This document shows, one piece after another, positions 9,015 through 25,623 of a stretch of 28,719 bases of DNA; the stretch's first letter is position 1, and each line of letters opens with the position of its first letter. Source of the stretch: Actinomycetota bacterium (lineage in GTDB: Bacteria > Actinomycetota > Actinomycetes > Streptosporangiales > Streptosporangiaceae); NCBI GenBank assembly GCA_003140115.1, contig PLIQ01000438.1, positions 1 through 28,719 of the forward strand, read 5' to 3'. Under the pieces are notes generated by a model that was given only the letters and a program-made list of their open reading frames with translations, did no database searches and was not told the DNA's origin. Made by a program: the position numbers and the translations under genes.

Positions 9015-9058
9015 TTTTGCATCCCGGGTTCCCGGGGACTGCGCTTGGGAGGGAAATA

Positions 9059-10225
9059 GTGCGCGCAAGGCACCTGATTGCGGCCACCGCCGCAGTTGCC
9101 AGCGGCCTGCTGCTCACTGCGGCTTGCGGCAGCTCGTCGAGTTCCAGCGGCAGCAGCACCGGCGGCAGTACCAGCAGCAGCACCACCAGCACCACTAACT
9201 GGGCGACCGCTACCTCCGCTGCGGCGGGCGGCGGCATGAGTGCCCTGGTCGCAGCGGCCGAGAAGGAAGGCCAGCTCAACGTCATCACGTTGCCCTCTAA
9301 CTGGGCCAACTACGGCACGATCATGAAGGACTTCACCGCCAAGTACGGGATCAAGATCACCGACGCCAACCCGGACGGCTCCAGCCAGGACGAACTGAAC
9401 GCCATCGCTCAGCTCAAGGGCCAGAGCCGCGCCCCCGACGTGGTTGACGTGGGTACCGCGTTCGCGGTCAAGGGCGACCAAGCAGGCGACTGGGCCCCGT
9501 ACGAGGTAGCGACCTGGAGCAACATCCCAGCCGACGCCAAGGCCTCGGACGGCAGCTGGTACGCCGACTACGGCGGATACGTGGCGATCGGGTACAACTC
9601 GGCGACGGTAAAGACCCCGCCGACTTCGTTCGCGGACCTGCTCAAGCCCATCTACAAGAACCAGGTGGCCATCAACGGCAACCCGACCCAGGCGAGCGCC
9701 GCGTTCTCAGCCGTATTCGCCTCGGCGCTGGCCAACGGCGGCTCGCTCAACGACATCACCCCTGGTATCAACTACTTCAAGAAGCTGCACGACGTGGGCA
9801 ACTTCGTACCGGTCGCGGCCAGCGCGGCGACGATGGAAAGCGGCCAGACGCCGATCGTGATCTGGTGGGACTACCTGCTGGCCTCCGAAATCGGCCCCAG
9901 CGTCCCCGGCCTGAAGATCGTGATCCCGTCGGACGCGTCCTACGCCGCCTACTACGACCAGGCCATCAGCAAGTACGCGCCCGACCCGGCCGCGGCCCGG
10001 CTGTGGGAGGAATACCTGTACTCCACCGTCGGCCAGAACCTCTGGCTCGAGGGCGAGGCCCGGCCGATCGAGCTGGCGACCCTAGTGGCGAACGGCACGG
10101 TCAACCAGAGCGCGTACAAGGCGCTGCCGCCTGCCCCGGCCGGCAACGTCACCTTCCCCACTCAGGCCCAGCAAGCGGCGGCCGAGAACGTCGTCGCCCA
10201 GCAGTGGTCCAGCGTGATCGGTTAG
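9059..10225 (+). CDS. ABC importer 1: phosphonate-type substrate-binding lipoprotein
   Basis: This is the extracellular binding protein (388 residues) of the first importer. GTG 9059 is chosen because a GGGAGGG site lies just upstream and it yields a clean lipoprotein signal (RARH, hydrophobic core, lipobox LTAAC) followed by a long Ser/Gly/Thr tether. The body is of the iron/polyamine/2-aminoethylphosphonate class (MSALVAAAEKEGQLNVITLP, DYGGYVAIGYNSA, PAAARLWEEYLYS, LWLEGEARPIE). It is clearly paralogous to the protein at 17667-18812. It leads a four-gene operon with permease, permease and ATPase. Its substrate is inferred from the phosphonate catabolic genes nearby: 2-aminoethylphosphonate or an N-methylated form. 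Sequence alone does not exclude another small charged compound. Confidence 0.85.
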   Translation: MRARHLIAATAAVASGLLLTAACGSSSSSSGSSTGGSTSSSTTSTTNWATATSAAAGGGMSALVAAAEKEGQLNVITLPSNWANYGTIMKDFTAKYGIKITDANPDGSSQDELNAIAQLKGQSRAPDVVDVGTAFAVKGDQAGDWAPYEVATWSNIPADAKASDGSWYADYGGYVAIGYNSATVKTPPTSFADLLKPIYKNQVAINGNPTQASAAFSAVFASALANGGSLNDITPGINYFKKLHDVGNFVPVAASAATMESGQTPIVIWWDYLLASEIGPSVPGLKIVIPSDASYAAYYDQAISKYAPDPAAARLWEEYLYSTVGQNLWLEGEARPIELATLVANGTVNQSAYKALPPAPAGNVTFPTQAQQAAAENVVAQQWSSVIG

Positions 10226-10227
10226 CG

Positions 10228-11181
10228 GTGGACCAGACCGTAGCGGCCCCGGGATCCCTGGCGGATCCCGGGGCCCCCGGGTCCGACCCCGCCGCCGAGG
10301 CCGGCCCCCTGGGGAGGCTGACCGTACCGGGCGCCCTGCGCTGGCTGCGCCGGGTAGCCGGTATCGTTCCGTTCGGCGCGTACGTGACGCTCGGGCTGCT
10401 GCTGCCGATGATCGCGGTCGCGGTCGGAGCCTTCGAGACCAACAACGGCGGCTTCACCTTCAACAACATCAGCGCCGCCACCCACGGCATCTACCTGCAC
10501 GGCTTCTGGCAGAGCATCATCTTGTCCGTATTCACCTCGATCCTGCCGGCCATCTTCGGGCTGCTGATCGCGTACGCGATCTTCACCGCCAAGCGCGGGA
10601 ACGTGCTGCGGCAGGTCGTGATCACCGCCTCCGGCGTGTTCGCCAACTTCGGCGGCGTGCCGCTGGCCTTCCTGTTCATCGCTTCCCTCGGATCCAGCGG
10701 GCTCATTACCCACTGGCTCGCGAACATCGGGTTCAACCTTTACGGCTACGGCTTCAGCTTGTATTCCCTTAGCGGCGTGATCGTGGTGTACCTGTACTTC
10801 CAGATCCCGCTGATGGTGCTGGTCATCCTGCCGGCCCTGGAGGGGCTGCGCCCCGCGTGGCGCGAAGCGGCCGAGAACATGGGCGCGCGGACCTGGGAGT
10901 ACTGGCGCTTCGTGGGCGGCCCGGTGCTGCTGCCGTCGTTCCTGGGCTGTGTGCTGCTGCTGTTCGGCAGCGCGCTGTCCGCGTACGCCACCGCCGAGGC
11001 GCTCACCAACGGGACGATCCCGCTGACCGCGATCCAGATCGGGTCGTTCCTGAACGGGAACGTCATCGCCGGCCAGGAGAACATCGGCAAGGCGCTCGGC
11101 CTGGGCATGGTGGTCATCATCGCGGTCGCGATGATCATCTATGTCATGCTGCAACGGAGGGCCGCCAAATGGCTGCGGTAG
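10228..11181 (+). CDS. ABC importer 1: inner-membrane permease A
   Basis: This 317-residue permease has a roughly 40-residue Pro/Gly/Ala-rich cytoplasmic N-terminus and about six membrane spans (first near VPFGAYVTLGLLLPMIAVAVGAF). The EAA loop reads REAAENMGARTWEYWRFVGGPVLLPSFLG, as in PotB/PhnU-type components. GTG 10228 follows the binding-protein stop by two bases and is preferred to upstream in-frame starts inside that gene. Its last 13 bases overlap the start of the second permease. It forms the transport channel together with permease B; the ATPase docks on the EAA loops. Confidence 0.88.
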   Translation: MDQTVAAPGSLADPGAPGSDPAAEAGPLGRLTVPGALRWLRRVAGIVPFGAYVTLGLLLPMIAVAVGAFETNNGGFTFNNISAATHGIYLHGFWQSIILSVFTSILPAIFGLLIAYAIFTAKRGNVLRQVVITASGVFANFGGVPLAFLFIASLGSSGLITHWLANIGFNLYGYGFSLYSLSGVIVVYLYFQIPLMVLVILPALEGLRPAWREAAENMGARTWEYWRFVGGPVLLPSFLGCVLLLFGSALSAYATAEALTNGTIPLTAIQIGSFLNGNVIAGQENIGKALGLGMVVIIAVAMIIYVMLQRRAAKWLR

Positions 11182-12017
11182 CCGATACCCAGATCGTGAA
11201 GGCGCCGCGCCGGGCCGCACGGCAAGGAGCCCCCCGGGCCGGCACAGCCTGGCGCTGGGTGGTCCTGCTGATCGCCGCCGTGTTCTTCCTGCTGCCACTG
11301 ATCGTGGCGCTCCGGTTCGCCGGGATCAAGGCCTTCGGTTCGGTGGTCAGCGAACCAGGCTTCACCTCCTCCCTAGGCCTGTCAGTCCGGCTGGCGGTCG
11401 TCACCACGGTGATCACGATCGTGCTCATGTTGCCCACTACCGTCTACGTCCACCTACGGCTGCCCGGGATCCGGCGGCTGATGGAGGGAATCACGATCCT
11501 GCCGATCGTCATCCCGCCGGTGGTGCTGATCGTGGGCGTCCTGCAGATCGCCCCGGGCTCGCTCAAGGGCACGCCGTACCTGCTGGGGCTGGAGTACGTC
11601 GTGCTGGCCATGCCCTTCGCCTACCGGGCCATCGACGCCGGCCTACGCTCGCTGGACCTGAAGACGGTTACCGAGGCGTCCAACTCGCTGGGGGCCGGCT
11701 GGGTCAGCACGATGCTGCGGGTGATCCTGCCGAACCTGCGGACCGCGTTGCTGTCGGCCATCGTCTTGACCGTGGCCCTGGTGCTCGGCGAGTACACGAT
11801 GGCCAGCCTGGCGCTGTACCAGACCTTCCCGGTGTGGATCTACGTCAACAGCCAGACCAGCGGCCAGGTGTCGGTCGCGGCCTCACTGCTCGCGCTGTTC
11901 GTGACCTGGATCTTCCTCATGGGCATCACGGTGCTCGGAACCCGACAGTCGCGCAGGACCGGCGGCGGCTCGGTCACGCTGTTTACCGTCGCACGTCAAG
12001 AAACGCGGGGTAATTAA
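11169..12017 (+). CDS. ABC importer 1: inner-membrane permease B
   Basis: This 282-residue permease of the PotC/PhnV type begins at ATG 11169 within the end of permease A (a 13-base overlap), with GGAGG upstream. A basic N-terminus (KAPRRAARQG) precedes about six membrane spans. The EAA loop is EASNSLGAGWVSTMLRVILPNLRTALLSA. The stop TAA 12015-12017 shares its last base with the ATG of the ATPase gene (TAATG), so translation is coupled. The same 13-base overlap, with the same ATGGCTGCGGTA sequence, occurs at the permease A/B junction of importer 2, showing that the two operons descend from one duplicated unit. Confidence 0.9.
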   Translation: MAAVADTQIVKAPRRAARQGAPRAGTAWRWVVLLIAAVFFLLPLIVALRFAGIKAFGSVVSEPGFTSSLGLSVRLAVVTTVITIVLMLPTTVYVHLRLPGIRRLMEGITILPIVIPPVVLIVGVLQIAPGSLKGTPYLLGLEYVVLAMPFAYRAIDAGLRSLDLKTVTEASNSLGAGWVSTMLRVILPNLRTALLSAIVLTVALVLGEYTMASLALYQTFPVWIYVNSQTSGQVSVAASLLALFVTWIFLMGITVLGTRQSRRTGGGSVTLFTVARQETRGN

Positions 12018-13126
12018 TGACCACCAACACCGCCCGGGACGCCACCGCGGCCGACGGCACCCGGCAGATGACCGAGGCCCGGGGCACGAGCGTGGTGCTG
12101 CAGAATCTGAGCCGCTTCTTCGGGGCCACCAAGGCCCTGGACGGGCTGTCCATCGACATGGCCCCGGGCGAGCTGGTCGCGCTGCTCGGTCCGTCCGGCT
12201 GCGGCAAGACTACGGCCCTGCGCATCGTGGCCGGCTTTGAGATCGCGGATACCGGATCTGTCCTGATCGACAGCAAGGACATCTCCTCGGTGCCGGCCGC
12301 CAAGCGGGACATGGGCATGGTGTTCCAGAGCTACAGCCTGTTCCCGAACATGAGCGCGCTGGACAACGTGGCCTTCGGGCTCCGGATGCGCAAGGTAGGC
12401 GCGGGCGACCGGCGCAAGCGGGCCGGTGAGCTGCTGGACCTGGTCGGCCTGGCCCCGCAGGCCAAGCAGTACCCGCACCAGCTGTCGGGTGGGCAGCAGC
12501 AGCGCGTCGCACTGGCCCGGGCCCTGGCCATCGAGCCGCGGGTGCTGCTGCTGGACGAGCCGCTGTCCGCCCTGGACGCCAAGGTCCGCCTGCAGCTCCG
12601 CGAGCAGATCCGCACCCTGCAGCAGCGGCTGGGCACCACCACCTTGTTCGTCACCCACGACCAGGAGGAAGCCCTGTCGATGGCGGACCGAGTCGGGGTC
12701 ATGAACAAGGGCAAGCTGGAGCAGATCGCCGCGCCGGACGAGCTGTACGATCACCCGGCCACCGCGTTCGTGGCCGAGTTCGTCGGCGTCATGAACCGGA
12801 TCCCGGCCGAACTCCAAGGCGGCGGGATGGTGACCGCGCTCGACAGCACTGTGCCGGTCAGGGGCGAGGCTCCGGACGAAAGCACGAGCGCGGTAGACGT
12901 GCTGGTCCGGCCGGAAGGGCTGACCATGGCGGTCATCGAGAACGGAAACGGGATCGTGACCACCAGGACGTTCCTCGGCTCGGTGACCCGGGTCGCCGTC
13001 CTGCTGTCCGGGGACGTCACCGTGCAGGTCGACAAGGCCAGCTCGGAGGCCGGCGCGCTGGCCCCGGGCACCTCGGTCTCGGTGACCCTCCCCAGCGAAC
13101 CGGTGCTGATCGCACCGAGGTCCTAG
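12017..13126 (+). CDS. ABC importer 1: ATP-binding protein
   Basis: This 369-residue cytoplasmic ATPase powers importer 1. All motifs are intact: Walker A GPSGCGKTT, Q-loop MVFQSYSLFP, signature LSGGQQQRVALARAL, Walker B VLLLDEPLSALD, and H-loop LFVTHDQEEAL. A C-terminal TOBE-type regulatory region follows (LVRPEGLTMAVIENG, TFLGSVTRVAVLLSG). The architecture is that of PotA/PhnT. It is the last gene of the operon and converges on the metallophosphoesterase gene with only five bases between the stop codons, leaving no room for a separate terminator. Confidence 0.93.
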   Translation: MTTNTARDATAADGTRQMTEARGTSVVLQNLSRFFGATKALDGLSIDMAPGELVALLGPSGCGKTTALRIVAGFEIADTGSVLIDSKDISSVPAAKRDMGMVFQSYSLFPNMSALDNVAFGLRMRKVGAGDRRKRAGELLDLVGLAPQAKQYPHQLSGGQQQRVALARALAIEPRVLLLDEPLSALDAKVRLQLREQIRTLQQRLGTTTLFVTHDQEEALSMADRVGVMNKGKLEQIAAPDELYDHPATAFVAEFVGVMNRIPAELQGGGMVTALDSTVPVRGEAPDESTSAVDVLVRPEGLTMAVIENGNGIVTTRTFLGSVTRVAVLLSGDVTVQVDKASSEAGALAPGTSVSVTLPSEPVLIAPRS

Positions 13127-13131
13127 CGCGC

Positions 13132-14808
13132 CTACGCGCCAGGCAGGCGCTTGACCGGGAAGGGGGGGATGACGCGCAGTTCGGTGTTCCGGTCGCTGGC
13201 GGCTCCGGCCATGACCGACACCGCCCACGGGAAGTTAGCCGCAAGCTCGCGATGCAGCGCGGCGAGGTCATCGGTGGTTTCCAGCGACACGGGCCGCAGC
13301 GGCGTGTCGTGGTCCACCATGGTGGTCACGATGGACAGGTACTCGCCGTGGTCGACAAGTTCGACCACACGGGTCTGGCACGGCCAGTCCGCCACCGCGC
13401 AGGTGGTGACCTCCCAGAACCCGCGGGCCGGGTCGGCCGGGTCGTGGTGCGAGCGAACCGTGTTGGTGTGCGTGTGACCGTTCAGCCACAGCACCACGTT
13501 CGGGAACCGGTGGACCAGGGCCACGAGGTCGGCGGCGCCCAGTACCGGCTCGCCGCCTGATCCCGGGTGAGCGCCGCGCGGGTTATCGAGCGTGCTGCTG
13601 CCGTGATGGGAGAACAGGATCACGAGCCGGTCGTCGTGGCCGGTCCGGACCTCGCTCCCGTCCGCTGTCCGGTAGGCCGAGTGGACCTCGCCGAGCCTGG
13701 CTTCCAGCCACCGGGCCTGGTCCCGGTCCAGGCACCCGGCCGCCCCGCCGGCCAGGCAGTTGGTGTCCAGCGCGATGAACCGGGCGGCCGGGGTGTCGTG
13801 GACGTAATACGCGGTACCGTCCAGCCGGTTGCGCTCGCTGAACCCGTGGCCGAACGGCCGCGAACCGGCTCGAAGGTGGGCGTCGACGAAATCCCGCCGG
13901 CTGATCGGCCTGCGGAAGGCATCCGCTGTGACCGACCGGGACGGGCCGGCCATGAACGCCTCGGGGCGGGTGGTGAACAGCTCGAGCGCCAGGTCGTGGT
14001 TGAAGTCCGCGGGCAGTGCGGTCGGCTTCTTGCTGCCGGTCAGTGCCGCGGCCAGGCCCGGGGTCTGGATGCCGACGCCCTGGTTGAGCGCCTCGTGATT
14101 ACCGAAGCAGGACAGCCAGGGGAGACCCAGGCCGGCCGCGGAGAACTCGCGCAGCGCCCGCCGGAGCAGGCCAGGGTGATGCGGGAAGCCGTATTCGCGC
14201 CGGAAGAGGTCCGGTCCGCCGGGACCCGCTCCGTCGGGTCTCCAGAAGACGTCGCCCGGCCAGTCAAGCGCCTGCACCCCCTCGTAGTCCTGCCCACCGG
14301 AATCCGGCGCGACCACGCCGCCTTCGAACAGGGCGAGGAACGCCTGCAACTCGTTCCACTGCGCGTTGTCGATCGCGTCGCCCGTGGTCACGGCGAGCTG
14401 CAAGGGCAGACCCGTCGCCGGACCCTGTACCGCGCCGAGAGTGCGGACGGTGGCGTCGACGGCGTGCACCGTAAGCGCCTCCTGGGGGCGTTGCACGGGC
14501 AGGATCTCGGCGTACCTGGGATCGGCGAAACGGGCGTTGAGGAATTCGAACCGTGCGGGCGACTGAACGTCGGCGAGCTGCAGGTCGGTGATGTGAACCA
14601 GGCACAGCAGCGGACGGCCGGAACCGGGCGCGTCCGCCGCGTCCGCCCTGGCCGCGCCGAAGTCGTCGCGGATCAGGTGCGATTCACCGGCGCGGGCCTC
14701 GACGGCCCGGTAGGGGGCCGACCCCCCGTTACGGAGTACTGCTCCGCGCTCGAGGCGGCGATGGGTGGTCAGCGGCGGAGGCCGTCCGGGCCCGTGGTGG
14801 TGGCTCAC
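13132..14808 (-). CDS. Calcineurin-type metallophosphoesterase (TIGR03767-like)
   Basis: This 558-residue phosphoesterase has the five metal-site motifs spread by long inserts: HITDLQ (72-77; Gln where many relatives have His), GDAIDN (143-148), GNHE (236-239), SHHG (400-403) and GHTH (444-447). It resembles the actinobacterial metallophosphoesterases grouped as TIGR03767. Many of those carry a Tat signal, but none is visible here, so it should act in the cytoplasm. GTG 14808 overlaps the TGA of the importer 2 ATPase (GTGA), making it the fifth gene of that operon. Coupling to an importer suggests it trims an imported substrate, for example a phosphonate or phosphate ester; that is inference. 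A different phosphodiester or nucleotide substrate is equally possible. Confidence 0.85.
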   Translation of the reverse strand: MSHHHGPGRPPPLTTHRRLERGAVLRNGGSAPYRAVEARAGESHLIRDDFGAARADAADAPGSGRPLLCLVHITDLQLADVQSPARFEFLNARFADPRYAEILPVQRPQEALTVHAVDATVRTLGAVQGPATGLPLQLAVTTGDAIDNAQWNELQAFLALFEGGVVAPDSGGQDYEGVQALDWPGDVFWRPDGAGPGGPDLFRREYGFPHHPGLLRRALREFSAAGLGLPWLSCFGNHEALNQGVGIQTPGLAAALTGSKKPTALPADFNHDLALELFTTRPEAFMAGPSRSVTADAFRRPISRRDFVDAHLRAGSRPFGHGFSERNRLDGTAYYVHDTPAARFIALDTNCLAGGAAGCLDRDQARWLEARLGEVHSAYRTADGSEVRTGHDDRLVILFSHHGSSTLDNPRGAHPGSGGEPVLGAADLVALVHRFPNVVLWLNGHTHTNTVRSHHDPADPARGFWEVTTCAVADWPCQTRVVELVDHGEYLSIVTTMVDHDTPLRPVSLETTDDLAALHRELAANFPWAVSVMAGAASDRNTELRVIPPFPVKRLPGA

Positions 14809-15929
14809 GCCTCGTCCCCGGCCACCGAGACGGCCGGGTCCGAGCTGGCCGATACGAGCACCGGGTCAGGCCGGATGGTCAGCGCGACCCGGCTGCCCGC
14901 CGGCAGCGCGGTCGCATCTGCGGTCGTAACTTGAGCCAGGATGGTGGCGTCGCCAAGATCGACGGTGACCCGGCTGGTCGCACCGAGGAAGGTAACGGCG
15001 ATCACGGTGCCGACCAGCAAGCCGGACTCGGGCGCGTCGTGGGAGGCCAGCGTCACCGCTTCCGGTCGCACCAGCGCGACCACCTGGCCGTCGGGCGTCT
15101 CACGGTCCACCAGCGGCAGCGTGCAACCGCGGACGGTCAGCTGGCCGGCCCGGACCTCGCCGACCAGCCGGTTGGTGAGACCGACGAACTCGGCCACGAA
15201 CGACGTGGCCGGGCGCGAGTAGACCTCGACGGGCGGCGCGAGCTGCTCGATGTGGCCTTCCCGCATGACCCCGACCCGGTCCGCGATGGCCAGCGCCTCT
15301 TCCTGGTCGTGGGTGACGAACAGCGTGGTGATGCCCACCTCGAGCTGGATCCGGCGGATCTGGTCCCGCAGCTGCGCCCGGACCTTGGCGTCCAGTGCCG
15401 ACAGCGGCTCGTCAAGCAGCAGCACCTGCGGCTCGATGGCCAGGGCTCGGGCCAGGGCGACCCGCTGCTGCTGGCCGCCGGAGAGCTGGTGCGGGTACCG
15501 GTCCGCCTGCGTGGGCAGGTCCACCAGTTCCAGCATCTCCATCGCGCGCTTGTCCCGCTGAGCCGCGCCGATCCGGCGCAGCCGCAGCCCGAAGGCCACG
15601 TTCTGCCGCACCGTCATGTGCGGGAACAGCGAGTAGGCCTGGAACACCATCCCCATGTCACGCTTGCTGGCGGGCAGGCGAGTGATGTCCTTACCGCCGA
15701 CGAAGATCTGCCCGGCGTCGGCGTCCTCCAGTCCCGCCAGCAGGCGCAGCGTCGTGGTCTTGCCGCAGCCCGACGGGCCGAGTAGCACGATGAGCTCACC
15801 GGGCTGCAGGGTCAGGTCAAGGCGGTCGAGCGCGACGACGGGGCCATAGTGCCGGCTCAGTGCCTCCATCCGCACCTCGACAGCGGTCCGGGCCGCGCCA
15901 TCTTGTGCCCTGGTCATTGGCGAAGTCAC
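14805..15929 (-). CDS. ABC importer 2: ATP-binding protein
   Basis: This 374-residue ATPase is paralogous to the one at 12017-13126. Its motifs are Walker A GPSGCGKTT, Q-loop MVFQAYSLFP, signature LSGGQQQRVALARAL, Walker B VLLLDEPLSALD and H-loop LFVTHDQEEAL, with a TOBE region near VALVRPEAVTLASHD. GTG 15929 is chosen: a GAGG site lies just upstream, overlapping the permease B stop. A TTG at 15968 and an ATG at 15917 are in-frame alternatives. Its stop overlaps the metallophosphoesterase start. It differs most from its paralogue in the C-terminal third, where regulatory ligands usually act. Confidence 0.92.
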   Translation of the reverse strand: MTSPMTRAQDGAARTAVEVRMEALSRHYGPVVALDRLDLTLQPGELIVLLGPSGCGKTTTLRLLAGLEDADAGQIFVGGKDITRLPASKRDMGMVFQAYSLFPHMTVRQNVAFGLRLRRIGAAQRDKRAMEMLELVDLPTQADRYPHQLSGGQQQRVALARALAIEPQVLLLDEPLSALDAKVRAQLRDQIRRIQLEVGITTLFVTHDQEEALAIADRVGVMREGHIEQLAPPVEVYSRPATSFVAEFVGLTNRLVGEVRAGQLTVRGCTLPLVDRETPDGQVVALVRPEAVTLASHDAPESGLLVGTVIAVTFLGATSRVTVDLGDATILAQVTTADATALPAGSRVALTIRPDPVLVSASSDPAVSVAGDEA

Positions 15930-15939
15930 GGGCCGTACC

Positions 15940-17657: not shown

Positions 17658-17666
17658 GTTCCCTCG

Positions 17667-18812
17667 CTAGCCGACGGCCTTCGCCCAGTTCGCCGCCAGG
17701 TAGTTGGCGGCGGCGGTGTTCTGGGCTTCAGTGAGGAACACCGGTGTCCCGGTCACGGCGGGCAGTGCCGAGGCCGCCGAGGTGTTGATGCTGCTATTAG
17801 AGGTCATGGCCTGCTGCTCCACCGGCCTGGCGCCACCCTCCAGCCACAGGTTCTGCCCGCCGCTGGCAGCCTGCGAGTAGAGGAACTCCTCCCACAGCCT
17901 GGCTGCCGCAGGATGCGGCGCGTCCTTGTTGATGGCCTGCGCGTAGTACCCGCCGAGAACGGCGTTCTGCGGGATGAACACCTTCCAGCTGCCCGCGGGG
18001 ACGCCCACGTAGCTCGGGAGGTTGAGGTAGTCCCAGTTGAACACGACCTCGGTCGTGCCCGCCTTGATCGTGGCACCAGTAGCCGAAATGGGGTTGAAGT
18101 TGCCGGCCGCCTTGAGCTTGGCGAAGAAGTTCACGCCGTCGGCGATGTTGCTGGCGGTTCCGCCTTCGGCGAGGTTCGCCATCATCACGCCGTTCAGCGC
18201 CGCATTGGCCGAGGTCGGGTTCCCGTTCAGCGCGACCGCGCCCTTGAACTTCGGGCCCAGCAGCTGGCTCAGCGAGGTGATCGTCCCGAACTTGGTCGAG
18301 TACCCGATCGCCATGTAGCCGCCGTAGTCCTCGTACCACAGGCCGTTCGGGTCCTTCTGCGCAGCCGGGATGTCCGACCAGGTGCTGACCTCGTAGGGCG
18401 CGAACAGACTCGTGTTAGCCAGGGCGACGGCCAGGCCGATGTCCATGACGTCGGGCGCCTTGGCGGTGCCGTTCTCGGTCTTCACCGCGTCGACTTCCTG
18501 CTGGCTGGTGCCGTCGGGGAGCGTGGAATTGACGGTGATCCCGTAGGTCTTCTGGAAGTCGTCGATGATCGTCCCGTAGTTCGCCCAGGTCGGCGGCAGG
18601 GCGATGACGTTCAGCGTGCCTTCCTTCTTGGCCGCCGCGATCAGGGCGCTCATGCCGCCCCCGGCCGAGACGGACGTTTCTGTGGCCCAGTTGACGCTCG
18701 AGCCTGACGATGCACCTGATGACGAACTTGATGACGAACTCGACGAGCAGCCGGTCGCCAGCAGCAGGGCGGCCGCGACGCCGGCGAACGCGAATCGATA
18801 TGGCGATTTCAC
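17667..18812 (-). CDS. ABC importer 2: phosphonate-type substrate-binding lipoprotein
   Basis: This extracellular binding protein (381 residues) is the first gene of the second importer operon. GTG 18812 is fixed by an AGGAGG site five bases upstream. It gives a lipoprotein signal (VKSPYRFAFAG, lipobox LATGC) and a Ser-rich tether. The body parallels the importer 1 protein: GGGMSALIAAAKKEGTLNVI, then TWANYGTI, DYGGYMAIGY, PAAARLWEEFLYS and LWLEGGARPVE. The ligand-facing middle differs more (NWDYLNLPSYVGVPAG against WWDYLLASEIGPSVPG), so the two may prefer different phosphonates. An open frame extends upstream to 18998 through the promoter and operator and is not coding. LacI-type control is likely. 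Confidence 0.87.
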   Translation of the reverse strand: MKSPYRFAFAGVAAALLLATGCSSSSSSSSSSGASSGSSVNWATETSVSAGGGMSALIAAAKKEGTLNVIALPPTWANYGTIIDDFQKTYGITVNSTLPDGTSQQEVDAVKTENGTAKAPDVMDIGLAVALANTSLFAPYEVSTWSDIPAAQKDPNGLWYEDYGGYMAIGYSTKFGTITSLSQLLGPKFKGAVALNGNPTSANAALNGVMMANLAEGGTASNIADGVNFFAKLKAAGNFNPISATGATIKAGTTEVVFNWDYLNLPSYVGVPAGSWKVFIPQNAVLGGYYAQAINKDAPHPAAARLWEEFLYSQAASGGQNLWLEGGARPVEQQAMTSNSSINTSAASALPAVTGTPVFLTEAQNTAAANYLAANWAKAVG

Positions 18813-18947
18813 GAGTGCCTCCTGAATAGCTTCCCCATCCCGAAGCGGATCGCGACGGTCCGGAAACGTACCGGGCAGCGACGCTGAGGAGGCCTCACGC
18901 CCCCGTGGCTCCCCTGGCCCCCCAGCTGAGAATGCAGGATAAACGCA

Positions 18948-18973
18948 GCTAAAACGTTTAGCATGCGACATGC
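18948..18973. promoter_or_regulatory. LacI-type operator candidate before importer 2
   Basis: GCTAAA-ACG-TTTAGC (18948-18962) is a perfect 6-3-6 inverted repeat with an AAACGTTT core typical of LacI-family sites. It abuts a second perfect repeat, GCATG-CGA-CATGC (18961-18973). Both lie at the predicted transcription start of the importer 2 operon, 49 bases after the LacI gene ends, which suits repression by that protein. Confidence 0.6.
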
Positions 18974-18998
18974 AAACACAGGCTGAACGAGGTGTCAA
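18970..18998 (-). promoter_or_regulatory. Promoter of importer 2 operon
   Basis: A perfect TTGACA -35 box (18998-18993) lies 17 bases upstream of TTGCAT (18975-18970), a weak -10. Transcription would start near 18963, inside the operator, leaving a leader of about 150 bases before GTG 18812. Confidence 0.5.
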
Positions 18999-19004
18999 GA
19001 ACCG

Positions 19005-20084
19005 TTACCGAGTTGCCGCACGCAACGACGCGGGTGCTCCGTCCACGGGGATCGCCGCGGTCGGCAGGCAGGACTGCGGGGCCTGGAGGGAGGCTCGTTC
19101 GACCAGGTCCACCGGGGCGATGTAGTCGTGCGGCGGATGGCCGTCAAGCAGCCTCGCCATGAGTGCGCGGCCCATCTCCCGGCCGTCGAGGCGGATGGTC
19201 GCCAGCGGCGGATCCAGCAGCTCAGACGTGGGCAGGTCATCATGCCCGATGACCGAGACGTCGGGTCCCACACGCAGGGCCAGGTCGCGGGCGGTCAGGT
19301 AGATCCCGAGCGCCGTGTAATCGGAGTTGGTGATGACCGCCGTAGGGGCGTCCTGGCGGGCCAGCAGGGTTCCGGCCGCCTTGCGCACGGCGGCGATCGT
19401 CAACGGCGAATGCATGACGTAAGCCCGGACCCCGAGTTCGCGGGCGAGGCGGCGGAAATGACGGAGCCGGTCCGGATCTGCCACCAGGCCACGCGGCGCG
19501 GACAGGAAGGCGACGCGGGAGTGACCTAGCTCGGCGAGCCGGCGCATGGCCATGTCGACCCCGATCGCGTTGTCCGGGTATACCCGCGACACGCCGGTGA
19601 TGCCCTCGATGGTCGCGTTGAGCGCCACCACCGGCGTGCCGGGGCGCAACTCCTGCCAGAGCCGCACCGACTCGCCGTTCCCGACCGGCGCGATGGCGAG
19701 CCCGGCCAGGCGCTGCGCGGCCATCTCCCGCACCAGCATGCGCTCGCGTTCCAGCGAGTAGTGCGAATCAAGGAGCAGCAAAGTGGCCCCGGCCTCGTCC
19801 GCGACCTGCTCGGCGCCGCTCAGCACCTCGAGGAAGAAGGGGTTGTTGAAGTTACGGATCACCAGGCCGTAAGTGGTGGTCCGGCCCCGCCGCAGGGCCT
19901 GGGCCTGCGGGTTGGCCCGGTAGCCAAGCTCCGCCGCGGCCGCCAGGATCCGGTGGCGAGTATCTTCCGCGACACCTGGCTGGCCGTTCAGCGCGAAGCT
20001 CACCGTGGCAACGGATACGCCGGCTCTCCTGGCCACGTCACGGATTCCAGCCGGCTGTCCCGCTCCGCCCTGGTGGCTCGTCAT
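19005..20084 (-). CDS. LacI-family transcriptional regulator
   Basis: This 359-residue repressor has an N-terminal LacI helix-turn-helix (IRDVARRAGVSVATVSFALN, residues 14-33), a hinge helix near NPQAQALRRGRT, and a periplasmic-binding-protein-like effector domain (YGLVIRNFNNPFFLEVLSGAEQ..., VSVIGHDDLPTSELLDPPLATIR). ATG 20084 is chosen, with AAGG close upstream; an in-frame GTG at 20096 is possible. It stands between the C-P hydrolase gene and the importer 2 operon on the same strand, with an inverted repeat just after it. It most likely represses importer 2, with a phosphonate or catabolic intermediate as effector; the effector cannot be read from sequence. A TAGGAT -10-like box at 20155-20150 may serve it. 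Confidence 0.92.
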   Translation of the reverse strand: MTSHQGGAGQPAGIRDVARRAGVSVATVSFALNGQPGVAEDTRHRILAAAAELGYRANPQAQALRRGRTTTYGLVIRNFNNPFFLEVLSGAEQVADEAGATLLLLDSHYSLERERMLVREMAAQRLAGLAIAPVGNGESVRLWQELRPGTPVVALNATIEGITGVSRVYPDNAIGVDMAMRRLAELGHSRVAFLSAPRGLVADPDRLRHFRRLARELGVRAYVMHSPLTIAAVRKAAGTLLARQDAPTAVITNSDYTALGIYLTARDLALRVGPDVSVIGHDDLPTSELLDPPLATIRLDGREMGRALMARLLDGHPPHDYIAPVDLVERASLQAPQSCLPTAAIPVDGAPASLRAATR

Positions 20085-20161
20085 GGCCTTACTCACGCTG
20101 ATGACGCTCTGCTTCCCCGACCGGAGTGGAGGTACGTCGATGAGCGCACATCCTAACCAGC

Positions 20162-20193
20162 CTGGTCGGCCTTCGGCCAGAGGCCTAGACCAG
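20162..20193 (-). terminator. Hairpin after the C-P hydrolase gene
   Basis: The 11-base arm CTGGTCGGCCT (20162-20172) pairs with AGGCC (20181-20185) and GACCAG (20188-20193), leaving a two-base bulge and an 8-base loop. It lies 14 bases after the hydrolase stop. The segment GGCCTAGACCAG also resembles a GntR/HutC-type site, so an operator role before the LacI gene is an alternative. Confidence 0.5.
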
Positions 20194-20207
20194 CTTGTGG
20201 CGGACCG

Positions 20208-20876
20208 TCAGCCCAGGACATGGGGCAGGAGGGCGGCGATCGTGTCGAGGATGAGCGGCGCGCCGGCCTGCTCCAGGTCCGCGCGGGAGCCGGCGCCGGT
20301 CAGCACGCCCGCCACGATCCCGGCCCCGGCGCGTAGCCCGGACTCGACGTCACTGGCGGTGTCGCCGGCCACCGCGAGCTCGCCAACCGCTTCGCCGTGC
20401 AAGGACAGCAGCGCGGTCAGCGGCAGGTCCGGCCACGGGCGGCCGCGGCCCGCGTCGGCGGGAGACAGGGCCAGGTCGATCAGCTCGCCCCAGCCCAGCT
20501 CGGAGATGATGGCGTCCCGGGTCGTGGGGGAGAAGCCGGTGGCCAGGCAGACCCGGATGCCGGCGTCGCGGCAGGTCTTGAACACCTCCGTCGCCCCTGG
20601 CATGGCCGCCACGTGGCCCGCGCGGACGGCCGCCGCGTAGTGGTCCTCGAACGCCTCGTTGGCCTGCTGCGCGGCGTCCTCGTGGCCCAGAATCTGGCGG
20701 AACACCTCGATCTTGGACTGGCCCATGGTCGACTTCACGTCCTGCATGGCCTGGTTGTACTTGGCCGCGGGCAGGTTCTGCGTCGCGATGGCCGCGGTGA
20801 ACGCCTCCAGCACGCTGCCGTCGTCGCGGACCGTGGTGCCGGCCATGTCCAAGCAGGCGACCGTGATGTGTGTCAT
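20208..20876 (-). CDS. PhnX-like phosphonatase (phosphonoacetaldehyde hydrolase type, TIGR03351)
   Basis: This 222-residue HAD-superfamily hydrolase is expected to cleave the C-P bond of phosphonoacetaldehyde to acetaldehyde and phosphate. The nucleophile loop reads DMAGTT (Asp10, Ala12): the phosphonatase DxA form rather than the phosphatase DxD form. In the cap, MGQSKIEVFR places Lys55 where PhnX has its Schiff-base lysine (MGLLKIDHVR). Later motifs are GRGRPWP and the metal loop GDTASDVESG. It is shorter than classical PhnX (about 270 residues), as expected for the PhnX-like subfamily. ATG 20876 overlaps the oxidase stop (ATGA), tying it to the enzyme expected to make its substrate. Precise substrate is inferred, not shown. 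Confidence 0.87.
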   Translation of the reverse strand: MTHITVACLDMAGTTVRDDGSVLEAFTAAIATQNLPAAKYNQAMQDVKSTMGQSKIEVFRQILGHEDAAQQANEAFEDHYAAAVRAGHVAAMPGATEVFKTCRDAGIRVCLATGFSPTTRDAIISELGWGELIDLALSPADAGRGRPWPDLPLTALLSLHGEAVGELAVAGDTASDVESGLRAGAGIVAGVLTGAGSRADLEQAGAPLILDTIAALLPHVLG

Positions 20877-22027
20877 CTAAATGTCTCCTCCGCGATGGCC
20901 GGGCTGCAGGTCATGCCCCGCCCGCCCGGCCCGGTGACCAGCACGACGCCCGGTTCGGGCTCAGATCGGTGGTACAGCACATGACTGGCGGCGGACGGCG
21001 CTACCTCACTGTAGATGCCGGCCCAGCGGCGCTGGATCCGCGGGATGGGGCCGCCGAGCAGCGCCTCGGCGCGGGCCTGCAGATGGTCGTAGGCGTCGGA
21101 ATCCACGTCAAACGTGAACGGCTCGTCGTATTCGTGAGTGTCACCGATGGTCAGGCCGCCGTCGGCCCGCTGGACCATCAGCAGCTGCGCCCGGGTGCGC
21201 GCGGCGACCGGCGTCTGCGGCGGCAGCTGGCTCCGTCCTGGCAGGTCGTAGGCGGGGTAGTAGCGCAGCGAGTCGCCGTCGGCGACCGCCGTGGTCAGCC
21301 GCTCGGACATGGGCGCGGTTTGCATCATCTGCAGCCGCACCCGGCGCACCCCGTCGCGCGCCAGGTAGTCGCGGTAGCGGCCGATCACCCCGGTGAACGT
21401 GGCGCCCGGGCACAGGACGATCAGGTCACACTGGTGCCAGACGCCGGTGTGATCACGCACGGCGTTCGGCGCGATCTCGGTCACGTCGCGCCCGGGCAGC
21501 CACTCATAGCCGCTGTGCCGGCCCGAGCGGGCCTCGCCTGCGGTGGCGGAAAGGTAGCCGCGCAGCGCGGGTAGCACCAGGCGCGGCTCGACGATCGCGT
21601 CGGCGCGGCAGAGCAAGCCGCCGGCCAGTTCGCCGCGCAGGGCCGGGTTGACGGTCCGGACGCCGCCCGGGTCGAGCAGCTCGAAGTCGCGCTGGACCGC
21701 GTCCGGCAGCGCGGCCGCTTCCTTGAGCACGCGCAGCTCGGCGTCCTCCGTGGCCAGGGTGAGCGAGCCCGCGGGCCAGAAGCGCAGACCCGGGACCTCG
21801 GCGCCCAGCTCGGCCCACAGCTCGCGGGCGCGCAGGGCCAGCGCGAGTTCCGCGCCCGCCCGCCTGCCGCTGACCCAGACCAGGCCGAAGTTCCTGACGC
21901 TCGCGCCGCGGGCCTCGCTCTCGCGTTCCAGGTGCACGACCTCGTAGCCGCGTCGCCGCGCCGCCACCGCGTGCATGGTGCCGAGCACGCCCCCGCCGAT
22001 CACCACGATCCGTTGCGTGAGCCTCAC
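20873..22027 (-). CDS. FAD-dependent amine oxidoreductase (TIGR03364 type), phosphonate-linked
   Basis: This 384-residue DAO/glycine-oxidase-fold flavoenzyme has a dinucleotide-binding loop right at the N-terminus (IVVIGGGVLGTMHA), an ERESEARGASVRNFGL segment that contacts FAD, and a C-terminal GPGGRGMTCSPAIAEE segment. Relatives beside phnX-like genes have been shown to oxidise N-methyl-2-aminoethylphosphonate, and some also 2-aminoethylphosphonate, to phosphonoacetaldehyde, replacing the PhnW transaminase. With the PhnX-like gene overlapping by four bases, this should be a two-step hydrolytic route. GTG 22027 is chosen: upstream residues of the open frame would precede the flavin loop by 27 unneeded positions. 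No ribosome site is visible and a -10 box lies seven bases upstream, so the mRNA may be leaderless. Confidence 0.85.
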   Translation of the reverse strand: MRLTQRIVVIGGGVLGTMHAVAARRRGYEVVHLERESEARGASVRNFGLVWVSGRRAGAELALALRARELWAELGAEVPGLRFWPAGSLTLATEDAELRVLKEAAALPDAVQRDFELLDPGGVRTVNPALRGELAGGLLCRADAIVEPRLVLPALRGYLSATAGEARSGRHSGYEWLPGRDVTEIAPNAVRDHTGVWHQCDLIVLCPGATFTGVIGRYRDYLARDGVRRVRLQMMQTAPMSERLTTAVADGDSLRYYPAYDLPGRSQLPPQTPVAARTRAQLLMVQRADGGLTIGDTHEYDEPFTFDVDSDAYDHLQARAEALLGGPIPRIQRRWAGIYSEVAPSAASHVLYHRSEPEPGVVLVTGPGGRGMTCSPAIAEETFR

Positions 22028-22034
22028 GGCCGTC

Positions 22035-22042
22035 AGTATACT
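22035..22042. promoter_or_regulatory. Palindromic -10 box for the FAD oxidase gene
   Basis: AGTATACT reads TATACT on both strands. On the minus strand it ends seven bases before GTG 22027, so transcription would start at the start codon. A TTGGCT at 22065-22060 could act as -35, though the 19-base spacing is long. The plus-strand tmpA promoter in the same 81-base gap is less clear. Confidence 0.45.
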
Positions 22043-22052
22043 CAATTTGCAA

Positions 22053-22072
22053 CATGTATAGCCAACTTTACA
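22053..22072. promoter_or_regulatory. Candidate operator between the divergent catabolic genes
   Basis: TGTATAG-CCAA-CTTTACA (22055-22072) is a 7-4-7 inverted repeat with one mismatch. Its complement contains GTTGGCTATACATG (22066-22053), matching GTTGGCTAGTCATG upstream of importer 1 (8972-8985) at 12 of 14 positions. The TATAG core recalls PhnF/HutC-type sites. Binding here could control both catabolic units. Confidence 0.5.
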
Positions 22073-22108
22073 CGCCGGTAGTACCTGCTGAAGGGCCGGA
22101 GGAGGCAC

Positions 22109-23236
22109 TTGAGCTGCAAAGATGGCGGGGACCTGGTACTCGAAGCGGATGGAAACATGCTACGTTTCCCTGCCGTTTGGCTGCGCGACAACTGCCCGTG
22201 CGCCGAATGCCTTGATCCCGGCAGCGGGCAGAAGCTGACCGACGTCACCGAGCTGCCGGGCGCTCTGGCGGTCAGCGGCACCGAGGTCGCCGGGGCCTCG
22301 GTGGTGGTGACATTCGCCCCTGACGGGCACCGGTCCGTGTTCCCCCGCGAGTGGCTAGCCGACCACGCGCTCGACGGGTACGGCGACGGTGACGGGCGCA
22401 CTGAGGACGATAAGCAACTCTGGCTGTCGGCCGACCTGGACCAACTGCCCGGGGACACCTGGCCGCGCTACCTCGGTGAGCCCGCGAACCGGGCGCGAGC
22501 TCTGGACGCGGTGCTGCGCTGGGGTTTCGTGCTGCTCCACGACGTGCCCGCCGAGCCCGCTATGGTGCTCGAGGTCGCCGCAACCTTCGGGTTCGTGCGG
22601 GAGACCAACTACGGTCGGCTGTTCGACGTCCGGGTCGAGCCCCGGCCGGGCAACCTGGCCTTCACCAGCCGCCGGATCCTGCCGCACACCGATAACCCGT
22701 ACCGGGATCCGGTGCCGACCGTCCAGTTGCTGCACTGCCTGCGCGCGGCGCAGAAGGAGGCCGGGGGGCCAGGAGGGGAAACTGGCCTGGTCGACGGGTT
22801 CGCCGCGGCCCGCGAGCTTCGCGCCACGGACCGCGAGACGTTCGACCTGATCGCGGGAACCCCGGTTCCGTTCGGCTATAAAGACAAGAGCGCGGAGCTC
22901 CGGGCCAGCCTGCCGCTCATCCAGCTCAGCCCGCGCGGCCGGATCCGTGGCGTCCGGTTCAACAACCGGTCGGCGCAGCCGCTGCAGCTGCCGTACGCGG
23001 AGGTCGTCGCGTTCTACGCGGCCTACCGGCGGTGGGCCGAGCTGCTGGCCCGGCCCGGGCGGCAGCTGAACCTTCGGCTCGCGCCGGGCGACTGCCTGAT
23101 CTTCGACAACACCCGGGTCATGCACGCCCGCACCGCGTTCAACGTAACCAGCGGCCGGCACCTGCAGGGGTGTTACGCCGACCTGGACGGCCTGGCCAGC
23201 ACCCTGGCGGTGCTACAGCGAGAGGAGATTCCATGA
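22109..23236 (+). CDS. tmpA: TmpA-like 2-(trimethylamino)ethylphosphonate dioxygenase
   Basis: This 375-residue Fe(II)/2-oxoglutarate oxygenase of the gamma-butyrobetaine hydroxylase family is predicted to hydroxylate carbon 1 of 2-(trimethylammonio)ethylphosphonate. The N-terminal zinc module shows Cys29, Cys31, Cys34 (DNCPCAEC) and His74. The iron triad is His193, Asp195 (LPHTDNPYRDP) and His339 (FDNTRVMHART). TTG 22109 has a GGAGGAGG site just upstream; the next ATG (22157) would remove part of the N-terminal module. The stop overlaps the start of the HD oxygenase (ATGA). Sequence alone would also allow gamma-butyrobetaine or trimethyllysine hydroxylase; the HD partner and the phosphonate neighbourhood decide for TmpA. 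Confidence 0.83.
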   Translation: MSCKDGGDLVLEADGNMLRFPAVWLRDNCPCAECLDPGSGQKLTDVTELPGALAVSGTEVAGASVVVTFAPDGHRSVFPREWLADHALDGYGDGDGRTEDDKQLWLSADLDQLPGDTWPRYLGEPANRARALDAVLRWGFVLLHDVPAEPAMVLEVAATFGFVRETNYGRLFDVRVEPRPGNLAFTSRRILPHTDNPYRDPVPTVQLLHCLRAAQKEAGGPGGETGLVDGFAAARELRATDRETFDLIAGTPVPFGYKDKSAELRASLPLIQLSPRGRIRGVRFNNRSAQPLQLPYAEVVAFYAAYRRWAELLARPGRQLNLRLAPGDCLIFDNTRVMHARTAFNVTSGRHLQGCYADLDGLASTLAVLQREEIP

Positions 23237-23751
23237 CGGCGGTCGAGACGATCGGGGAGCTGTTCGCCGGGCCCATGGCGCGTGACCACATGGGCGAGCC
23301 GGTGCCAATCGGCGAACACATGCTGCAGGCCGGCGCGCTGGCCGAAGCGGCTGGCGCGGAGGGCACGCTGGTGGCCGCGGCTCTGCTGCACGACATCGGC
23401 CATCTACTCGGCACTGACGAGGATCGGCACGGCGAGTCCGGCGCGCGATGGCTGAGCCAGTGGTTCGGCACCGCGGTGACCGAGCCGGTGCGGTTGCACG
23501 TGCCGGCCAAGCGGTACCTGTGCGGGGCGGACGCCGGTTACTTCGGGCTGCTGTCGGCCGAATCGGTCCGCACGCTGTCGCTGCAGGGCGGCCCGATGAC
23601 CGCGGCCGAGGTGGCCGCGTTCGAGGCGCTGCCGCACGCGCGGGACGCGGTGGCCGTGCGCCGGTGGGACGACCAGGCCAAGGACACGGCGGTTACCCCG
23701 CCGCGGTTCGCGCACTTCGCGCCGCTACTTGAGGCTCTGGTCCGGATCTGA
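23233..23751 (+). CDS. tmpB: TmpB/PhnZ-like mixed-valent diiron HD oxygenase (C-P cleaving)
   Basis: This 172-residue HD-domain protein is predicted to use O2 to split the C-P bond of the hydroxylated product, giving glycine betaine and phosphate (PhnZ does the same with hydroxylated aminoethylphosphonate to give glycine). Candidate ligands match PhnZ spacing: His29, His53-Asp54 (LLHDIGH), His66, His89 and Asp146 or Asp147. Glu22 lies where PhnZ has Glu27, while the place of PhnZ Tyr24 appears to be His19 with no Tyr nearby. The ATG overlaps the tmpA stop, so the pair is coupled. Its last 27 bases overlap the 3' end of the convergent GntR gene. A generic HDIG phosphohydrolase is the alternative, made unlikely by the pairing. 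Confidence 0.83.
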   Translation: MTAVETIGELFAGPMARDHMGEPVPIGEHMLQAGALAEAAGAEGTLVAAALLHDIGHLLGTDEDRHGESGARWLSQWFGTAVTEPVRLHVPAKRYLCGADAGYFGLLSAESVRTLSLQGGPMTAAEVAAFEALPHARDAVAVRRWDDQAKDTAVTPPRFAHFAPLLEALVRI

Positions 23752-24552
23752 CTGGGTTGACCTGGGGGGACGACCCCCCGGTTGCGCCCGGTGGGCCCGC
23801 GTCCGGGACAGCGCGTTGACCGCGGTCGAGTTGTGCACACTGAACGCGACCGCGCTGCCCAGGTAACGGTCATCTGACCATTCGACCGGCACGCTGGCCA
23901 GGTCCGTGGTGAGGCGACGCTCACGCAGCATGGGCACCCGCGGGCTGACGCCGAGCAGCCTGGCGTCCTCGGCCGAGGCCGCCACGGCGTCGATCACATG
24001 CTCCGCGTCGGCGAACACGATGCCCAGGTCCTCCAGGCGCTCGGTGATCGAGACCTGCTCCAGGTCCATCCCGGCCACCAGCGCGCCGACCCGGTCCGGG
24101 TAGGCGCCGCGCTCGATCATTACCGGGCGGCCGGACAGCAGCCGCACCCGGACCAGGTAGTAGATCGGCGCGGCGGGCGGGACGGCCAGGCGTTCGGCCT
24201 CCAGCGGCTTGGCCGGGCGGCGTTGCAGGGCGATGACCCGGCCGCTCGGCACCTCGCCCACGGCCCGGGCCCAGCGGGAGAATGACAGCAGCTCACCGAA
24301 GCTCTGCACCCGCGGCCCGCCGATGACCACTCTTCGCGCCCCGCGCCGGGACGAGATCACCCCGTCCGCGCGCAGGGCCGCGAACGCCTGGCGGATCGTG
24401 CCGCGGGACACCGAGTAGCGCTCGGCTAGCTCGCTCTCCGAGGGCAGCCGGGTACCGGCCGCGTACCCGCCGGCCGCGATCGCGGCCTTAATGTCCTCGG
24501 CGACCTTGCGGTAAAGCGAAGGCGAACGGGACAGCGCCTGATCTACCGCCAT
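23725..24552 (-). CDS. GntR-family regulator, HutC subfamily (PhnF-like)
   Basis: This 275-residue regulator has an N-terminal winged helix (LYRKVAEDIKAAIAAGGYAA, then RLPSESELAERYSVSRGTIR with the recognition helix) and a C-terminal UTRA effector domain (SFSRWARAVGE..., YYLVRVRLLSGRPVMIERG, VPMLRERRL). The PhnF-like assignment rests on family and position beside phosphonate catabolic genes. ATG 24552 is chosen because it gives the usual short leader before the winged helix and leaves a perfect palindrome upstream; an in-frame ATG at 24645 would add 31 residues and make that palindrome coding. The basic, Pro-rich C-terminal tail (HRAQPGGRPPRSTQS) overlaps the end of tmpB on the other strand. 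Confidence 0.9.
   Translation of the reverse strand: MAVDQALSRSPSLYRKVAEDIKAAIAAGGYAAGTRLPSESELAERYSVSRGTIRQAFAALRADGVISSRRGARRVVIGGPRVQSFGELLSFSRWARAVGEVPSGRVIALQRRPAKPLEAERLAVPPAAPIYYLVRVRLLSGRPVMIERGAYPDRVGALVAGMDLEQVSITERLEDLGIVFADAEHVIDAVAASAEDARLLGVSPRVPMLRERRLTTDLASVPVEWSDDRYLGSAVAFSVHNSTAVNALSRTRAHRAQPGGRPPRSTQSDPDQSLK
23763..23780 (+). terminator. G6/C6 hairpin after tmpB
   Basis: GGGGGG-ACGA-CCCCCC (23764-23779), extended by a T-G wobble, starts 12 bases after the tmpB stop. It also lies in the GntR gene's C-terminal codons, so it could slow transcription from both sides. Confidence 0.5.
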
Positions 24553-24606
24553 GACAGCCGAGCGTATCTGGCGGTTAGCCGGTACGACATCCCGGCGCGC
24601 AACAGT

Positions 24607-25611: not shown

Positions 25612-25623
25612 GGTTCCATGGTG

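Follow-up and report, generated by a model that had tools for sequence, protein, structure and literature searches.

The window analyzed here comprises 28,719 nucleotides of DNA from an Actinomycetota bacterium. Scans with Pfam and NCBIfam profiles revealed that the stretch between positions 9059 and 24552 encodes two diverged ABC importers, two enzyme pairs predicted to cleave C-P bonds, and regulators of the GntR and LacI families. The first-pass annotation, which described a composite phosphonate island with two regulators, is thus borne out in gene content and coordinates. It counted twelve clustered genes; the island contains 13 structural genes, and the omitted one is the TIGR03767 metallophosphoesterase at 13132–14808. 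Its statement that the window lacks PhnW and C-P lyase genes agrees with a Pfam scan, which detected neither among the 30 window open reading frames. The functions given below for the enzymes are predictions from homology. The features of the island are as follows:

8991–9008, plus strand: weak predicted GntR operator site (9.9 bits) preceding importer 1
9059–10225, plus strand: SBP1, substrate-binding lipoprotein of importer 1 (SBP_bac_6; Pfam/NCBIfam), GTG start at 9059
10228–11181, plus strand: PermA1, ABC permease (Pfam/NCBIfam), start uncertain
11169–12017, plus strand: PermB1, ABC permease (from its translation; 40% identity with PermB2, 80% with the homologue at locus L001)
12017–13126, plus strand: ATP1, PhnT2-like ABC ATPase (TIGR03265)
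13132–14808, minus strand: MPE, metallophosphoesterase (TIGR03767, 386 bits, over the cut-off of 330.75)
14805–15968, minus strand: ATP2, PhnT2-like ABC ATPase (TIGR03265), start uncertain
15940–16803, minus strand: PermB2, ABC permease (Pfam/NCBIfam)
16791–17657, minus strand: PermA2, ABC permease (Pfam/NCBIfam)
17667–18812, minus strand: SBP2, substrate-binding lipoprotein of importer 2 (Pfam/NCBIfam), GTG start at 18812
18949–18961, no strand: LacI-type palindrome CTAAAACGTTTAG, between the SBP2 and LacI genes
19005–20096, minus strand: LacI-family regulator (Pfam/NCBIfam)
20208–20876, minus strand: PhnX-like HAD hydrolase (TIGR03351, 195.8 bits, under the cut-off of 218.9)
20873–22027, minus strand: FAD-dependent amine oxidase, PbfD/HpnW type (TIGR03364, 298.4 bits, over the cut-off of 285.1)
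22051–22068, no strand: predicted GntR operator scoring 20.6 bits, in the interval that separates the divergently oriented oxidase and TmpA genes
22109–23236, plus strand: TmpA, predicted 2-trimethylaminoethylphosphonate hydroxylase (NF049936, 415.8 bits, over the cut-off of 400)
23233–23751, plus strand: TmpB-like HD-domain diiron oxygenase (6npa match, 1e-37), ATGA overlap with tmpA
23725–24552, minus strand: GntR/UTRA regulator, PhnF/HutC-like (Pfam/NCBIfam), ATG start at 24552 or start at 24645

A sigma-70 scan of positions 8800–25700 returned no sites. Origin of the window from a plasmid was set aside; each of the 20 listed megablast matches to plasmids was short and covered at most 3% of the query.

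Profile scans relate both enzyme pairs to the families originally proposed for them, with TmpA and the oxidase over their family cut-offs. In the first pair, the oxidase gene overlaps the start of the PhnX-like gene by 4 bases; GTG 22027 was chosen as the oxidase start, since this places the operator upstream of the gene. Alignment of the hydrolase with Bacillus cereus PhnX by MAFFT revealed that D10, A12-G-T-T, M51-G, K55, G145-R-P, D172, and D176 are common to both proteins. D10 and A12 correspond to D12 and A14 of the DxAGTT nucleophile motif in PhnX, while K55 aligns with the cap lysine K53 in the MAFFT alignment and not in the HMMER profile alignment. A PhnX-like match adjoins all 11 over-cut-off oxidases in a 296-genome sample of the phylum, the weakest at 52 bits and 27%. 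The fold was discarded as support for PhnX chemistry because the model of the hydrolase matches many HAD enzymes, with AlnB or 3s6j scoring best depending on the comparison. A plasmid-borne FAD oxidase reference yielded matches of only 30–31% in two records, and the oxidase was therefore assigned to no PbfD subclade.

We consider it unlikely, but a real prospect, that this pair acts on some other aminophosphonate (1-hydroxy-AEP or a glyphosate-like compound) rather than on 2-aminoethylphosphonate (AEP) or N-methyl-AEP. The description of TIGR03364 proposes 1-hydroxy-AEP, as quoted in the accessible text of PMC10590968, and the available portion of PMC11203657 describes in silico work that predicts glyphosate-like glycine derivatives as substrates of its HpnW. 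Moreover, the hydrolase scores far below the cut-off of the true PhnX model TIGR01422 (66.4 versus 220 bits), and in the stretches examined at L118, L123, and L127 an HD oxygenase adjoins the oxidase/PhnX-like pair with no TmpA match. Against this reading stand the conserved DxAGTT motif and, in the MAFFT alignment, the cap lysine, as well as the oxidation of N-methyl-AEP shown for PbfD enzymes, one of which is annotated as TIGR03364 and one of which also oxidizes AEP (accessible text of PMC10590968).

The second pair comprises TmpA, which matches structure 6npb at 6e-92, and the TmpB-like protein. N182, N286, and R287 of TmpA correspond to the Asn, Asn, and Arg residues described as phosphonate-binding in the available sections of PMC9296572. 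The Arg is present in 82 of 82 aligned rows, and the Asn residues occur in 79 and 74 rows; at the Arg position, human gamma-butyrobetaine dioxygenase carries Ala instead. TmpA also matches TIGR02409 at 327 bits, which would fit a gamma-butyrobetaine hydroxylase of carnitine synthesis accompanied by an HD-domain hydrolase. That score misses the family's cut-off of 414.75, whereas the NF049936 cut-off is passed; a TmpB match accompanies TmpA in 77 of 80 loci. On the profile cut-offs and the Arg we rejected this reading, which we regard as highly improbable.

The TmpB-like protein falls below the cut-offs of both relevant profiles (TIGR03276, 190.5 versus 214.6 bits; NF049941, 168.7 versus 300 bits), and its closest solved structure is TmpB 6npa. 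All six diiron ligands (H29, H53, D54, H66, H89, and D146, counted from the start Met) are present, together with the Lys. The lid reads HxxE instead of YxxE: its Glu is kept, and His19 (numbered without the start Met) replaces a Tyr found in 81 of 86 aligned rows. In PhnZ and TmpB, according to the accessible part of PMC8177086, this Tyr is bound to the second iron site ahead of substrate binding. The replacement raises the slim chance that the enzyme is impaired or shifted in substrate and that the second route is incomplete. Against this stand the retention of the iron ligands, lid Glu, and Lys, and the His might itself bind iron.

The first-pass annotation suggested a survey of gene neighborhoods in related actinomycetes, and TmpA and the oxidase do co-occur across 150 Streptomycetaceae genomes: 60 contain both, 6 TmpA only, 40 the oxidase only, and 44 neither (odds ratio 11, p 1e-8, uncorrected for kinship between genomes). 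In 22 of the 60 genomes with both, TmpA lies within 25 kb of the oxidase. Over-cut-off oxidases were found in 64 of 79 TmpA genomes (46/49 in one set and 18/30 in another). Among 69 TmpA-bearing relatives, none had PhnW and three had PhnJ over the cut-off.

To locate candidate operators, we used a position weight matrix derived from 28 sites, all of them in promoters of TmpA or importer genes at loci other than the window. The matrix matched the window at two positions only, strongly at the divergent oxidase/TmpA promoter and weakly at the importer-1 promoter. The latter match is weak on its own, because 2 of the 20 shuffled windows scored at least as high (9.9 bits); an identical copy of this 18-mer occurs at L001 position 3232. 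Counterparts of the strong site score 27.4 bits each at L001 (8666) and L008 (9920), and the equivalent position at L002 has weak matches of 4.0 and 3.9 bits. Across loci the operator precedes TmpA in 48 of 80 cases and SBP1 in 23 of 39. Of 62 oxidase loci, 24 carry it at the oxidase gene, including 13 of 13 Kitasatospora and Streptomyces loci in which TmpA lies 8.8–29 kb away. Matches numbered 27 in 249 kb, compared with 1 in 1.25 Mb of shuffled sequence. The GntR protein of the island presumably binds the predicted site. Co-occurrence in Streptomycetaceae, linkage within 25 kb, and a predicted operator common to both suggest that the two routes belong together. The earlier claim of two separate C-P cleavage routes draws support from these findings as well as from family assignment and catalytic residues.

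The two importers are diverged copies, with identities of 51% between the SBPs, 45% between the A permeases, 40% between the B permeases, and 57% between the ATPases. ATP1 and ATP2 both have PhnT2 as their top match and both fall under its cut-off (396.9 and 402.6 versus 457.7 bits). SBP1 (54.1 bits) and SBP2 (29.6 bits) fall short of the curated AEP-importer cut-off of 395.3; the best PDB match to both, 5t1p, is named merely a substrate-binding protein, with no ligand indicated.

The genes for importer 2, LacI, and the phosphoesterase make up a second module, distinct from the rest of the island and carrying a conserved LacI-type site of its own. All 13 bases of the palindrome are the same at the other two loci with that promoter, L001 (1925–1937) and L212 (13954–13966); its core, AAACGTTT, was not found at L002, L008, or L214. 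The matrix scan of the window gave no GntR-operator match at importer 2, and the module, importer 2 included, was not found in the stretches examined around the same routes at L002 and L008. Thus, the two importers of the first-pass annotation are both present, and a phosphonate cargo is not established for both. The phosphoesterase has DxQ in its first metal motif and no visible Tat signal. Its model resembles Lmo2642, GpdQ, and acid sphingomyelinase with modest scores, and its sequence gave a single PDB match (E 0.61).

These features lend substance to a competing view, which we hold to be possible but not the better bet, that the module is a neighboring scavenger of ordinary phosphate esters such as glycerophosphodiesters and stands outside phosphonate use. 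A search for the phosphoesterase in G002 gave zero matches, and in G003 one 40% match on a separate contig, which fits that view. The likeness of SBP2 and ATP2 to their importer-1 counterparts speaks against it, as does the persistence of the module next to the island in genomes G001 and G346, despite a different gene order in G001. Furthermore, a TIGR03767-family phosphoesterase follows importer 1 at L003, L212, and L214.

Gene content, residues, co-occurrence, and operator positions lead us to favor, with a probability of roughly 70%, a scavenging island for AEP and its N-methyl forms in which two independent C-P routes have one regulator and one importer in common. Aminophosphonates would enter through importer 1. 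In the first route, the FAD oxidase would take the place of PhnW and deaminate AEP and/or N-methyl-AEP to phosphonoacetaldehyde, which the PhnX-like enzyme would split into acetaldehyde and phosphate through a Schiff base on the cap lysine. In the second route, TmpA would hydroxylate trimethyl-AEP and TmpB would cleave the hydroxylated intermediate, giving glycine betaine and phosphate. The methylation state assigned to each route follows characterized homologues in the available text of PMC10590968 and PMC10574752; all substrates named here are putative. GntR would control importer 1 and both routes, the latter through one site between divergent promoters. The second module probably imports and opens related phosphorus esters. 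A more elaborate version, which we find doubtful, is a regulon for salvage of phosphonolipid headgroups: importer 2 would import glycerol-type aminophosphonate esters, the cytoplasmic, Tat-less DxQ phosphoesterase would free the headgroup, and the GntR-controlled routes would take phosphorus from headgroups with none, one, or three N-methyl groups.

Under the scavenging model, a cell could draw phosphorus from several methylated forms of one natural compound, probably under one regulator. Co-occurrence and a predicted common operator, which accompanies the oxidase even in loci where the genes lie 9–29 kb apart, suggest that, to soil actinomycetes, AEP-type compounds count as a single nutrient class whatever their methylation. 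The outcome is a regulon open to direct test and a candidate hydrolase of phosphonate esters. In the accessible portions of the literature, the two chemistries are treated separately and mostly in proteobacteria; here they occur together in genomes of Actinomycetota, Streptomycetaceae among them, most of which lack a match to PhnW or PhnJ. Each cleavage chemistry has been published. What sets the island apart is their combination, the predicted common operator, and the phosphoesterase module; the literature searched, which included few subscription papers, yielded no precedent for TmpAB together with an oxidase/PhnX pair.

Four known systems, compared through the available parts of their descriptions, come closest. 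The TmpA/TmpB pathway of Leisingera caerulea (PMC10574752, PMC8177086, PMC9296572) shares with the window the two families, adjacent genes, metal ligands, and phosphonate-binding residues. The window differs in its lid His, GntR regulator, and divergent oxidase operon; none of the 10 proteobacterial TmpAB genomes in the survey set had an FAD oxidase match. The AepXVW, AepSTU, and PhnSTUV importers (PMC8316502) likewise include pfam13343 SBPs and PhnT2-like ATPases, whereas the SBPs and ATPases of the window fall below the curated AEP-importer cut-offs. The Achromobacter HpnW-PhnX cluster with PhnHD (PMC11203657) resembles the window in combining an FAD oxidase, a phosphonatase, and an HD-domain oxygenase without PhnW. 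In that account it has a LysR-type regulator and no described TmpA partner, and its phosphonatase activity was measured. In the PhnW-independent PbfD2-PhnX pathway (PMC10590968), as in the window, a TIGR03364 FAD oxidase adjoins a phosphonatase-type gene and PhnW was not seen. The window hydrolase, in contrast, is a below-cut-off TIGR03351 PhnX-like protein, and its gene pair is joined to TmpAB.

Open reading frame listing, codon-position GC, and Pfam and NCBIfam scans gave the gene content of the island, shown here with two matrix-predicted operator sites.

8991–9008: predicted GntR operator, weak, upstream of SBP1 (9.9 bits)
9059–13126, + strand: importer 1, comprising the substrate-binding lipoprotein SBP1, permeases PermA1 and PermB1, and ATPase ATP1
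13132–20096, leftward: metallophosphoesterase (MPE)-ATP2-PermB2-PermA2-SBP2-LacI
20208–22027, leftward: PhnX-like/FAD oxidase pair
22051–22068: predicted GntR operator between the start codons of the divergent oxidase and TmpA genes (20.6 bits)
22109–23751, rightward: TmpA/TmpB pair
up to 24552, leftward: GntR regulator

The inventory in the first-pass annotation was correct except that it left out the TIGR03767 MPE (386 bits; cut-off 330.75), so the island totals thirteen structural genes and two regulators. Genes within each enzyme pair overlap by four bases (20873–20876 for PhnX-like/oxidase and 23233–23236 for TmpA/TmpB), as would be expected for translational coupling. Elsewhere in the window, 1194–4129 encodes a tungstate/molybdate-type importer whose permease and ATPase form a single fused protein of 634 residues, accompanied by a WtpA-like binding protein; all parts score below curated cut-offs. 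Positions 26990–28429 encode a 479-residue protein that neither Pfam nor NCBIfam matched at E 0.001; its counterpart in the homologous locus L001, 89% identical, flanks the island on the corresponding side.

The best 80 of 571 relatives were kept from a TmpA scan of genome contigs, and a TmpB match accompanies TmpA in 77 of these 80 loci. The compact divergent layout, in which importer 1 is followed by the PhnX-like and oxidase genes pointing away from TmpA, TmpB, and GntR, recurs in loci L001, L002, and L008. The oxidase/PhnX pair lies on the far side of importer 1 in L023 and L047, while L056 has a cut PhnX-like gene beyond importer 1 with the oxidase next, outside the locus. In genome G001 (L117 plus L001), the window's flank genes (AAA, DUF1206, ANTAR, STAS, and Tyr phosphatase) also precede the island, and importer 1 and the MPE-LacI module are in exchanged order relative to the window, apparently at the same chromosomal site. 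In genome G346 (L212), importer 1, the MPE-LacI module, and PhnX/oxidase are ordered as in the window; an extra phosphoesterase gene follows ATP1, and TmpAB are on a different contig. This genome, whose island is closely related to the window's, also has PhnJ of C-P lyase. Lid residues 19–22 of the window's TmpB (23287–23298) are HxxE instead of YxxE, the sole lid His among 86 aligned rows. TmpA matches of two genomes, G327 (L031) and G349 (L054), contain one in-frame stop codon each.

The two routes co-occur beyond the island. Among 150 evenly sampled Streptomycetaceae genomes, 66 had a TmpA match (61 above cut-off) and 100 had the oxidase; 60 genomes had both, 6 TmpA only, 40 the oxidase only, and 44 neither (odds ratio 11, Fisher p 1e-8, relatedness not corrected). 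TmpA and oxidase lie 8.8–25 kb apart in 22 of the 60. Among 79 genomes found via TmpA, the oxidase exceeded the cut-off in 64 (46/49 plus 18/30), and the ten proteobacterial genomes had no oxidase match. PhnW was above cut-off in none of 69 actinobacterial TmpA genomes (4 genomes had a match below it) and PhnJ in 3. In a phylum sample of 296 genomes, the oxidase was above cut-off in 11, each time adjoined by a PhnX-like match (weakest, 52 bits). At three of these loci (L118, L123, and L127) an HD oxygenase adjoins the pair and the fetched stretches contain no TmpA match, resembling the Achromobacter cluster of PMC11203657. The lid residue of the L123 HD oxygenase is Trp.

A palindrome search in promoters of the 80 TmpA loci revealed AGTTG-N6-CAACT upstream of TmpA in 48/80 and of SBP1 in 23/39; in one shuffle, the top listed patterns reached 10/80 and 6/39. 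However, GC-rich palindromes (GCCGC arms) also occur in 20/39 SBP1 promoters. A matrix was built from 28 distinct sites, with none contributed by L001, L002, L008, or oxidase promoters. Its only two matches above zero bits in the window are the listed sites. The best score in 20 shuffled windows was 12.8 bits; the 8991–9008 site is weak on its own because 2/20 reached 9.9 bits, but its exact 18-mer is present again in L001 at 3232. At the divergent promoter, L001 and L008 each have a site of 27.4 bits; L002 has only matches of 4.0 and 3.9 bits there. The matrix matches 24 of 62 oxidase loci, always within 200 bp of the oxidase match start, and in the TmpA set all 13 genomes with the oxidase 8.8–29 kb from TmpA have an operator at the oxidase. 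Overall, 27 matches occur in 249 kb; shuffled sequence totalling 1.25 Mb gave 1. We infer that the window's GntR binds this operator. However, this link is weakened because 38/62 oxidase loci have no match and the fetched stretches of G346 and another genome, G347, contain neither an operator above 5 bits nor a GntR match.

The LacI module carries a separate palindrome, CTAAAACGTTTAG, which is located identically in the window, L001, and L212; its core, AAACGTTT, was not found in L002, L008, or L214, three loci in which no such module was observed. The two importers are diverged copies (40–57% identity), and in L003, L212, and L214 importer 1 is likewise followed by a TIGR03767 gene. TIGR03767 proteins elsewhere in these genomes commonly have an N-terminal twin-arginine signal, whereas the importer-linked proteins of the window, L182, L212, L003, and L214 have none, as judged by eye from script-chosen start codons. 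The first metal motif is DxQ in the window, L182, L212, and L184, and DxH in the other 10 of 14 aligned proteins. The closest structures to the predicted MPE model (pLDDT 76) are those of Lmo2642, GpdQ, and acid sphingomyelinases, with modest TM-scores. We read the MPE as a putative cytoplasmic phosphodiesterase for an imported ester, phosphonate or ordinary phosphate.

According to PMC10590968, PbfD enzymes oxidize N-methyl-2-aminoethylphosphonate (N-methyl-AEP) to phosphonoacetaldehyde; one PbfD also accepts AEP and could stand in for PhnW. The same source describes trimethyl-AEP as not a PbfD substrate and a pair of iron oxygenases as its only described route. Because PbfD does not take trimethyl-AEP, the two routes would have no substrate overlap, provided that the homologues here act alike. 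Each route on its own is already known. A literature search limited largely to openly available papers found no precedent for both routes under one predicted common operator, together with a LacI-linked importer-phosphoesterase module.
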